From: Glycocaulis alkaliphilus
Lineage (GTDB): Bacteria; Pseudomonadota; Alphaproteobacteria; Caulobacterales; Maricaulaceae
DNA: 64,000 bases
Reading direction: 5' to 3'
NCBI RefSeq assembly: GCF_004000605.1
Contig: NZ_CP018911.1
Span: 1,860,001 to 1,924,000, forward strand
A program made the translations under genes and the position numbers. The notes under the pieces are model-generated. The model was not told where the DNA came from. It searched no databases and was given only the letters and a program-made list of their open reading frames with translations. How positions within the stretch are numbered: position 1 is the first letter of the stretch; every line of letters begins with the position of its first letter. Of the stretch, positions 20,604-23,237 are shown one piece after another.

Positions 20604-20696
20604 GACAGTTATCCTCCCGAAGGGATTGGACGGATCACACGCTTTCTATACGCTTCGCTTCATCAGTGTCACGCCCTACCGGAAGTGCTGTCTGCC

Positions 20697-22646
20697 ATGG
20701 CCGAGAAGAAAACACCCTCCAAACGCAAGAAACCCGCATCATCCGGCAAGAAGCCGGCGCCAAAAGCAGCAGCAGCCAAGCGCGCGTCCACACCCGGCAA
20801 GGAAGCAGGAAAGCCCGTGACGGCCAGCCCGGGGTCCACGCCGGAGACGCCCTTCCCGGCCCTGCCCGCAGCCGATCTGGAAACGCTGGAGACCATCTCG
20901 CGCAATGTCATGCAGTCTGCCCTGAAGAGCCAGAAGCTGATGGCGGACATGATGCGCCGTTCACTGGACGGCGATCCGGCCCTGAAACCGCAGGCCGATC
21001 CGTTGCATGCCTCGCCGGAACTGGCACAGACGTGGGAGAATGTGCTCGGCGACCCTGAATTGCTGCTGCAGGCCCAGTCAGACCTCTACCGCGGCTATCT
21101 GGATTTGTGGGCCGGTGCCACGAAGAAGATGTTGGGGGAGGATGCACCGCCCGTCATCGAACCGGAGAAGGGCGACAAGCGCTGGCGAGCGGCCGAATGG
21201 ACCGAACATCCGATGTTCGACGCCATGCGCCAGTCCTACCTGCTAAACCAGCGCTTCCTTTTGAGCCTCGTCAACAATGCCAGGGGCATAGACGAGGAGA
21301 CGCGGCGCAAGGTGAATTTCGTCACCCGCCAGATGATCGACGCCATGTCGCCGACCAATTTCGCGCTGACCAATCCGGATGTGCTCAAAGCTACGTTCGA
21401 GACGAAGGGCGAAAACCTGTCACGCGGGCTGATAAATCTCGTCAACGACCTTGAACGCGGCAATGGCCGCCTCGCCCTCACCCAGACAGACATGGAAGGC
21501 TTCGAGGTGGGCGAGGACCTCGCGGCGACGCCGGGCGATGTTATCTACCGCAATGCGGTGATGGAGCTGATCCAGTATGCGCCCGCAACAGACACCGTGC
21601 GCCAGCGCCCGATCCTCATCGCGCCGCCCTGGATCAACAAATTCTACATCATGGACATGCGCCCGCAGGGCTCGATGATCCGCTGGCTGACTGAGCAGGG
21701 TTTCACCGTCTTCCTGATCTCATGGGTCAATCCGGATGCGTCCATGAAGGACGCAACCTTCGACGACTATATCCGCCAGGGACTGTTTCAGGCGCTGGAG
21801 TGCGTGGAGCAAGCCACCGGCGAGCGGCAGGTGGACGCTATCGGCTATTGTATTGGCGGCACCATGCTGGGCAGTGCGCTCGCCCTGATGGCGGCTGAAA
21901 ACGATGACCGCATCGCCTCGGCCACCTTCTTTGCCGCGCAGCTGGATTTCGAGCTGGCGGGCGAGCTTCTGGTCTTCATCGACGAGGAATGGTTCAAGGA
22001 AATCGGCCGCCTCATGGACGCGCAAGGCGGCGTGCTGGACGGGCGCACCATGGCCGACACGTTCAACATGCTGCGCGCGAACGATCTGGTCTGGTCCTTC
22101 GTCATCAATAATTATCTGCTCGGCAAGACGCCGCAGGCCTTTGACCTGCTCTACTGGAATGCCGACCAGACGCGCATGCCCAAGACCTTGCACCTCTACT
22201 ATCTGGAGAAATTCTACAAGAACAACGCATTGTCCAAAGGCGAGCTGGAGCTGGGCGGCCACAGGCTGGACCTCAAAAAGGTGAAAATCCCGGTCTTCAT
22301 GCAGGCCAGCAAGGAAGACCATATCGCCCCGGCGGACTCGGTTTACCGCTCCGCGCGCCTGTTCGGCGGCAAGACGCAATACATGATGGCCGGATCGGGC
22401 CATATCGCGGGCGTGGTCAATCACCCCGATGCGAACAAATACCAGCACTGGATCAATGAGACCCTGCCGGAGAGCCGCGAAGACTGGCTGAAAAGCGCCA
22501 AAGAGCATCCCGGCTCCTGGTGGCCGCACTGGAAGGCCTGGCTGCTCTCAATGAACGACGCGCAAGTGCCGGCGAGGAAGCCGGGCGGGGGCAAGCTCAA
22601 GCCTCTATGCCCGGCACCGGGCGAATATGTGAAGGTGCGGAGTTGA
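20697..22646 (+). CDS. phaC: Class I poly(3-hydroxyalkanoate) synthase
   Basis: 649 residues from the ATG at 20697, with GGAAG 11 bases upstream; a GTG at 20685 in frame overlaps that site and is less likely. It polymerises hydroxyacyl-CoA on PHA granules. The PhaC N-terminal domain precedes an alpha/beta-hydrolase core with the lipase-like box G-Y-C-I-G-G (nucleophile Cys385). The catalytic Asp is in K-E-D-H-I-A-P and the His in G-S-G-H-I-A-G-V. The first 45 residues are an unusual Lys/Pro/Ala-rich extension. The C-terminus P-G-E-Y-V-K-V-R-S is encoded again at 23080-23109 after the next gene. The stop overlaps a TTG start of that gene. Confidence 0.96.
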   Translation: MAEKKTPSKRKKPASSGKKPAPKAAAAKRASTPGKEAGKPVTASPGSTPETPFPALPAADLETLETISRNVMQSALKSQKLMADMMRRSLDGDPALKPQADPLHASPELAQTWENVLGDPELLLQAQSDLYRGYLDLWAGATKKMLGEDAPPVIEPEKGDKRWRAAEWTEHPMFDAMRQSYLLNQRFLLSLVNNARGIDEETRRKVNFVTRQMIDAMSPTNFALTNPDVLKATFETKGENLSRGLINLVNDLERGNGRLALTQTDMEGFEVGEDLAATPGDVIYRNAVMELIQYAPATDTVRQRPILIAPPWINKFYIMDMRPQGSMIRWLTEQGFTVFLISWVNPDASMKDATFDDYIRQGLFQALECVEQATGERQVDAIGYCIGGTMLGSALALMAAENDDRIASATFFAAQLDFELAGELLVFIDEEWFKEIGRLMDAQGGVLDGRTMADTFNMLRANDLVWSFVINNYLLGKTPQAFDLLYWNADQTRMPKTLHLYYLEKFYKNNALSKGELELGGHRLDLKKVKIPVFMQASKEDHIAPADSVYRSARLFGGKTQYMMAGSGHIAGVVNHPDANKYQHWINETLPESREDWLKSAKEHPGSWWPHWKAWLLSMNDAQVPARKPGGGKLKPLCPAPGEYVKVRS

Positions 22647-23065
22647 TAGCAGACTTACTCGATCCAGACGTGTTGATCCCGATTATCCTGCTGACGGGGA
22701 TTGCCGTGATTGCAGTTGGCGCCGGGATGCTAAGGCGTCGCAGCCGGGGTTACGTCGTCGTCACTGCGAAACACTTATTTTATCGAGACAAGCGAAAGAT
22801 CACCGTTCCGCTCGGATCCATTGTCGCCATCGAAGCGGTATCGGTCGATCTGACAACGCATGAGAGTTGGGGATTACAGCTCCAAACCAGCTCGGCGACA
22901 CATTATCTGGATGAGGACCTGAAAGGGTTTGAAAAGGCGGCATACCAGCTTGGCGCGCATTTTGGATTCGACGCCAAGGAGGCCATCGGTTCCGCGAACG
23001 CTTCACTGATCAAGCGGCCCTTCAACAGCTTTCGACACACTGTGTGGACGGCTAGCGCCAACTGA
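22643..23065 (+). CDS. Small membrane protein with PH-like domain, foreign-looking, unknown function
   Basis: 140 residues if started at the TTG overlapping the phaC stop (TTGA); the start is uncertain. One transmembrane helix (I-P-I-I-L-L-T-G-I-A-V-I-A-V-G-A-G-M) is followed by a basic R-R-R-S-R stop-transfer. The cytoplasmic beta-rich part (V-V-V-T-A-K-H-L-F-Y-R-D-K-R-K-I-T-V-P-L-G-S-I) resembles bacterial PH-like domains, weakly. Base composition is visibly lower in GC than phaC. It is bracketed by two copies of the phaC 3' tail, suggesting acquisition by recombination at the phaC end. Confidence 0.6.
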   Translation: MIADLLDPDVLIPIILLTGIAVIAVGAGMLRRRSRGYVVVTAKHLFYRDKRKITVPLGSIVAIEAVSVDLTTHESWGLQLQTSSATHYLDEDLKGFEKAAYQLGAHFGFDAKEAIGSANASLIKRPFNSFRHTVWTASAN

Positions 23066-23070
23066 ATGTT

Positions 23071-23109
23071 CAGTCGGGCCCCGGTGAGTATGTGAAGGTA
23101 CGAAGTTAG
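23071..23109 (+). pseudogene. Second copy of the phaC 3' end (gene-tail remnant)
   Basis: Bases 23080-23109 encode P-G-E-Y-V-K-V-R-S then TAG. This is identical in protein to the last nine residues of the phaC gene ending at 22646. Five of the nine codons differ, all at the third position (ccg/ccc, ggc/ggt, gaa/gag, gtg/gta, cgg/cga), and the stop differs too. It is not joined to an upstream phaC frame. It looks like the stranded tail of a diverged phaC allele. Confidence 0.75.
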
Positions 23110-23237
23110 AGGCTTCCGCCCAAGTGCGTTTCACCGGGATGAGCCGGTATCCGGCCCCCGAGCCGGAATCCAGTCTCCAGTTCCACAAAGCATTCCTCGT
23201 TGTCCTGGGAATGACGCTTGAGCGCCGATCCCAAACG
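23110..23237. repeat. Degenerate REP-like palindromic sequence
   Basis: This stretch includes gagccggtatccggc, gagccggaatccag and tgggaatgacgcttgagcgc. These resemble the parts of the palindromic element at 31145-31230 (ccggaatgacg, ggaacccag) but are more decayed. No coding capacity was recognised. Confidence 0.45.

Follow-up and report, generated by a model that had tools for sequence, protein, structure and literature searches.

The phaC locus and its repeated tail

The window analysed here is a stretch of 64,000 nucleotides (G000:C1:1860001-1924000) from a 3.02-Mb single-contig genome, designated G000. We infer that this genome and the five same-genus genomes with which it is compared (G001 to G005) belong to Glycocaulis. 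The window contains a PHA synthase gene, phaC, whose product has a PhaC_N domain (Pfam, E 1.6e-71) and is 94, 83, 94, 77 and 89% identical in amino acid sequence to PhaC of G001, G002, G003, G004 and G005 respectively. The end of this gene is found a second time, beyond a small gene:

20685..22646, + strand: phaC (PHA synthase), resident gene; the ORF starts with GTG at 20685 and has an in-frame ATG at 20697
22617..22646, + strand: copy A, the final nine phaC codons and stop, in frame and resident-like (sequence, likelihood test)
22643..23065, + strand: small, foreign-looking gene of 140 aa; ORF with a putative TTG start overlapping the phaC stop
23066..23079, + strand: 14-nt spacer between the small-gene stop and copy B (sequence)
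23080..23109, + strand: copy B, a second phaC tail with five synonymous differences and a TAG stop, outside any long ORF
23110..23125, no strand assigned: resident flank, aligning by eye to the G001 DNA directly after its single phaC tail

Copy A (22617-22646) reads CCG GGC GAA TAT GTG AAG GTG CGG AGT TGA and copy B (23080-23109) reads CCC GGT GAG TAT GTG AAG GTA CGA AGT TAG. Both translate as PGEYVKVRS* and they are offset by 463 bp. As the first-pass annotation of the window had described, the residues are the same while five of the nine sense codons differ, each at the third base, and the stops are unlike (TGA versus TAG). Treated as a 30-bp direct repeat, the copies are identical at 23 of 30 positions with a longest identical run of 11 nt. 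This is the best match in the next 1500 nt and was equalled by none of 2000 dinucleotide shuffles (maximum 21), and the degenerate nine-codon pattern is expected only ∼ 6e-10 times in 500 nt of one strand. A chance match, which the annotation had doubted and for which it had proposed a shuffled-sequence test, is ruled out by these two results.

The probability that five random changes over 27 bases all hit third positions is 0.0016, a value that serves only as a guide because the left edge of copy B is fuzzy. The spacer at 23066..23079 may be a degenerate left edge of copy B, and the two codons immediately 5' of copy B look, on inspection by eye, like the PA codons that some relatives have, apart from two non-synonymous changes; such a two-codon extension would weaken the argument from synonymous differences. 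We also considered whether copy B is the coding end of another gene and rejected this, as its frame is open for 17 codons including the tail and holds no ATG, GTG or TTG.

The codon pattern for GEYVKVRS is present in 24 of the 137 family genomes, once in each of 22 and twice in G000 and in G116, where the two copies each end a phaC on separate contigs; the reversed pattern, used as a control, gave zero matches in all 137. We read 119 phaC loci (73 + 46, with some records entered twice and with < 493 bp downstream in L045, L133 and L144), and among these a second PhaC tail lies downstream in G000 only. The one further regular-expression match (L044, G118) is unlike a tail.

The small gene

The 140-aa ORF is the sole plausible gene between copies A and B. 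There is no integrase between the copies, and the ORF has no Pfam match. Its composition supports a foreign origin, as the lower GC had suggested at first pass: GC is 0.548 and GC3 0.636, whereas the final 1500 nt of phaC have 0.607 and 0.820. The putative TTG start does overlap the phaC stop, and the gene is probably translated by coupling to phaC. In the initial description of the product as a membrane/PH-like protein, the membrane part corresponds to a hydrophobic N-terminal stretch recognized by eye, and the PH-like part found no family match; single-sequence AlphaFold gave a pLDDT of 33 and the best PDB sequence match has an E value of 0.44. No family in Pfam, NCBIfam, PADLOC or PHROGs scored above cut-off (weak hits at E 0.068 and 0.089), nor did any for the relatives of the protein that were scanned.

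The protein had no match in genome_contigs (a pattern-based search reaching close relatives only), viral contigs, plasmids or phages. The related protein of G028 had none in plasmids or phages, the small protein encoded after phaC in G071 none in plasmids, and the viral scans were empty; other relatives in the plasmid and phage searches matched only a 1-Mb Niveispirillum replicon. A stand-alone immunity-like role is our guess for the product.

Empty sites in the genus

The small gene has no match in any of G001 to G005, each of which has a single phaC tail. The empty sites expected from the first-pass annotation therefore exist in all five same-genus genomes, and this supports the view that the G000 lineage acquired the small gene, along with one of the two tails, by insertion. 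The annotation had also predicted that strains without the small gene would end phaC in the codons at 23080-23109, and none of the five does; G002 and G128 match copy A over a 25-nt pattern.

The DNA following the single tail of G001 (AGTTGAGAGCGCTTCCGCCTGAGTGCGTTTCACCGG) aligns by eye with that following copy B (AGTTAGAGGCTTCCGCCCAAGTGCGTTTCACCGG), and no other copy of the first 28 bases of this flank was reported in the G000 genome. In G003 and G002, phaC leads directly to the rpsI side, as in the window. The TAG stop of copy B is the stop used in four of the five same-genus genomes; that of copy A is TGA. Positions 23126-23148 of the window, in the phaC-rpsI interval, hold a short dispersed repeat with two further copies in the genome.

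Which tail is resident

The first-pass annotation had interpreted the locus as the in-frame import of a diverged phaC 3' end with its linked small gene, leaving the old tail stranded. Our data support this in part: the insertion stands, and the polarity looks wrong. Sliding identity between G000 phaC and nine relatives does not fall towards the 3' end, with values of ∼ 0.9 up to the stop for G001 and G003; a donor of the same genus would escape this test. We then used a tree of 26 phaC genes from genomes found in the survey (63 of the 137 in the family), with third positions under GTR+G, and scored the third positions of the tail with either copy A or copy B at the G000 tip. Resident status is favoured for copy A with a margin of 14.9 log units, the first four codons giving 6.8 and the remaining ones 8.2. 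Conditional log probabilities are -0.9 (copy A) and -15.8 (copy B), which makes copy B less probable than all 467 nine-codon windows of phaC (minimum -11.4).

From these scores it follows that copy B is not predicted by descent in coding form. Copy B is thus either foreign, or resident and decayed. We prefer a foreign origin because pure decay needs all five changes to fall on third positions (the P of 0.0016 given above) and at least five changes in all (P 0.11), 2.5 changes being expected in 27 nt on the terminal branch. Part of the oddness of copy B could nevertheless be decay after stranding, and it is possible that copy A came from a donor within the genus and that copy B decayed later.

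Relatives of the small gene behind phaC

A search of 61 near genomes with the small gene gave matches in G000 and G028 only. The G028 homolog lies directly after phaC, overlaps its stop by one base and is 30% identical over 89 aa (E 3.7e-7, genome search). A three-sequence profile added G072, where the relative is again behind phaC and is 89% identical to the small gene of G012. An eight-sequence profile, to which G000, G012 and G028 contribute and G056 does not, added G056, where ∼ 280 nt with a small ORF separate phaC from the relative; on the 119-locus set, which lacks G072, this profile scored G000, G012, G028 and G056. Relatives of the small gene are accordingly found behind phaC in four other genomes (G028, G012, G072 and G056). 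The small ORF after phaC in G071 (L047) looked related and was left uncounted because its profile score is insignificant (E 0.59).

More widely, the first profile gave hits in 12 of 398 order genomes at E 0.01, a count that still contains false ones; the family was further detected in 10 of 328 genomes at E 5e-4 and in three of 318 class genomes at E 1e-5. Several weak matches were discarded: those in G121 and G124 fall in the region encoding the C terminus of glucose-6-phosphate isomerase (Pfam PGI, G124) and that in contig 2 of G107 lies inside a large unrelated ORF. Other weak matches came from G125, G120, G106, G104, G099, G262, G116 and contig 27 of G107 (E 3.5e-5).

PhaC proteins of G028, G012 and G070 are 92-95% identical (last 499 residues; G028 versus G012, 94%), yet the small genes of G028 and G012 are only ∼ 20% alike and G070 has none. 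The small gene of G028 is closer to that of G000 (30%), though G000 PhaC is just 67% identical. This suggests that small genes are exchanged behind phaC, at its 3' end; the alternative to swapping is that the small gene evolves very fast.

Other host genes and a second repeated tail

Relatives of the small gene also follow genes for ilvD-like dehydratases (G437, G433, G320), for a serine acetyltransferase, cysE (G617, whose coordinates are those of Niveispirillum NZ_CP025613), and for an Lrp/AsnC regulator (G107, G106); Pfam matches for the host gene were obtained in G437, G320, G617 and G107. In G042 the relative is ∼ 80 nt after a sensor-kinase gene, and those of G358 and G346 are not tight behind any gene. 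The product of the small gene is a member of an unnamed, scattered family of small proteins that are often encoded directly behind metabolic or regulatory genes. Family members at L170, L171, L175, L179 and L207-L210 are free-standing or follow ilvD-like, cysE or sensor-kinase genes; no Pfam model matched the ones scanned, from L170, L175, L179 and L209.

In G107 and G106 the regulator ends in VAEGTEV* and the small gene in DEGTEV*, with 17 of 24 nt matching. The two tails of G107 are GAG GGA ACG GAA GTC TAG TTG TGG and GAG GGA ACC GAG GTC TGA CTG CGG. In G108, which is without the small gene, the bases after the regulator stop are those found beyond the second tail (TCAGTTTTTCC). At this site (L172, L173, L182-L200) the small gene is present in three of the 19 genomes of the genus (G107, G106 and G111) and absent from the close relatives G108 and G110. 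The small gene of G111 is 35% identical to that of G107 and is accompanied by no tail repeat. The regulators of the nearest relatives end differently, in VAEG* or VAAG*, and therefore both lrp-like repeats may be insert-borne, unlike the phaC case; the mechanism may differ as well. As a separate observation, the 3' end of the Lrp/AsnC regulator is a second hotspot for the same small-gene family.

To judge how general the repeated tail is, we looked for ungapped matches to the final 24 nt of each host gene in the 600 nt that follow it, with 400 shuffles, at 13 small-gene loci (the doubtful G071 included) and 11 chosen controls without a small gene. The repeat stands out in G000 (0/400 shuffles), G107 (2/400) and G106 (0/400), which amounts to two cases in all. 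Nothing comparable is seen elsewhere: the best result is 105/400 among the other ten small-gene loci and 17/400 among the controls. Since 10 of 13 loci are without a second tail, the duplication is not regular. A looser test, which used gapped local alignment between the final 90 nt of the host gene and the 400 nt beyond the small gene, gave p values of 0.0066 for G000, 0.013 for G028 and 0.033 for G072. The G028 and G072 repeats lie away from the tail end and neither is flagged by the stricter ungapped test, and we rejected both. The duplicated tail is real but rare among small-gene loci, or quickly lost.

Origin of the arrangement

The tail of phaC is duplicated around a low-GC insert, the corresponding sites of relatives are empty, copy A fits the lineage while copy B does not, and a similar repeat is present at a second host gene. 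We give about even chances to a model where a foreign small gene and a foreign phaC tail were inserted by crossover in the last bases of phaC. The incoming DNA would have carried the small gene and the phaC tail of a more distant, lower-GC lineage, the presumed donor. The molecule would have been a tandem, or a presumptive circle, of foreign tail plus small gene. A single crossover with the resident tail, which we would place in the AGTT shared before the stop, would then create both joins. On the left, resident phaC would keep its own codons and receive its stop and the small-gene start from the donor (AGT TGA TAG); on the right, the small gene would be followed by the foreign tail and then by the resident stop and flank (AGT TAG AGG). 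Several points argue against this crossover model. Neither a circular intermediate nor a recombinase or donor came to light, and genome_contigs, viral contigs, plasmids and phages gave no match to the small protein; the tail homology is only ∼ 30 bp, with no identical run beyond the 11 nt noted above; the second tail is missing from 10 of the 13 small-gene loci; and the relatives in G042, G358 and G346 are not tight behind a metabolic gene.

A donor within the genus may instead have given G000 a phaC 3' end with its linked small gene, by a crossover in phaC and an illegitimate join on the right, the old tail then drifting to become copy B. This is possible, if rather unlikely. It needs no circle, it agrees with the resident outer flank of copy B and with the pairing of phaC and small gene without a second tail in other genomes, and it relies on a mechanism that has been proposed for type VI secretion (T6SS) immunity arrays with displaced 3' ends (PMC5361080). 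In that account, the immunity-gene arrays of Vibrio cholerae are built by successive insertion, for which homology-facilitated illegitimate recombination is proposed (PMC5361080). The phaC locus resembles these arrays in having small genes downstream of a conserved anchor region and older 3' ends moved downstream. It departs from them in that its anchor, phaC, is a housekeeping gene that is kept intact and has no visible effector beside it, in that the small protein falls in no known family, and in that the odd tail is the stranded one and not the one in frame. Homology-facilitated illegitimate recombination can use one-sided homology to add non-homologous DNA beside a conserved gene (PMC3240628; PMC5361080). 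By itself it would not place a foreign phaC tail beyond the added DNA. The empty site that such a process should leave in relatives was found in all five same-genus genomes; a donor-derived block on the phaC side was not. Against a within-genus donor we further note that copy A, not copy B, fits the lineage, that phaC is without mosaic structure, and that the small gene occurs in none of the five genomes of the genus from which the donor would have to come. Copy B would also have to have drifted at third positions, with a probability of 0.029 for three changes and 0.0016 for five.

Local duplication of the tail when the small gene was inserted, by a staggered cut or a tandem duplication, followed by simple decay of copy B, seems improbable to us. 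Copy B is outside long ORFs and atypical, like decayed DNA. However, the third-position bias of all five sense differences (P 0.0016) and the number of changes, five or more on the branch (P 0.11), speak against decay, 30 bp is long for a target duplication, and the only plausible gene between the copies is the 140-aa ORF.

Prophages and islands can integrate in the 3' ends of protein-coding genes and supply a recoded tail, icd/e14 being an example. The phaC locus is like icd/e14 in that two versions of the host gene's end flank the insert, distinguished by synonymous changes and by their stop codons, and unlike it in that the insert is 463 bp without a recombinase and the in-frame tail looks resident. 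The phaC case shares its anatomy with known systems and is set apart by the one-gene insert, the missing recombinase and the resident-looking in-frame tail. The insert might also be what is left, after deletion down to one cargo gene, of a larger integrative element whose attachment site was the 3' end of phaC. There are known elements that restore the end of a host gene in synonymous codons, and this origin would account for the synonymous differences and the changed stop. We consider such a remnant quite improbable: the tail that an element should supply in frame is the one that scores as resident by 14.9 log units, the second tail occurs in G000 only of 119 phaC loci, no integrase was noticed among the ORFs listed at these loci, and single small genes lie near phaC in four other genomes. 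With the few terms tried, we found no account of this arrangement in the open-access literature.

A broader reading, which we consider quite unlikely, would be an unnamed class of one-gene cassettes. These would encode fast-diverging small orphan proteins and pass from one bacterium to another through recombination at the last codons of housekeeping genes (phaC, lrp-like and perhaps ilvD-like and cysE), with a recoded host tail as the recombination site; the host gene would remain intact, and the direct repeats would allow precise gain and loss. The phaC locus looks like a snapshot of a single gene being added at the end of a housekeeping gene without harm. The phaC and lrp-like sites, with their empty neighbours, offer a direct test of gain, loss and swapping of one-gene insertions, and they lead to a protein family that is as yet unnamed.

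Other small ORFs at the phaC 3' end

In G123 (L037, L163), a low-GC small ORF (GC 0.51) occupies +1 to +385 after phaC; it has no significant BLAST similarity to the small genes. Brevundimonas and related genomes (L028, L029, L032, L136, L141, L142, L146, L147, L149-L151, L153 and L154) have a conserved, membrane-like ORF of ∼ 125 aa that starts inside the phaC stop codon, and that belongs, as judged by eye, to a different family from the small gene of G000.
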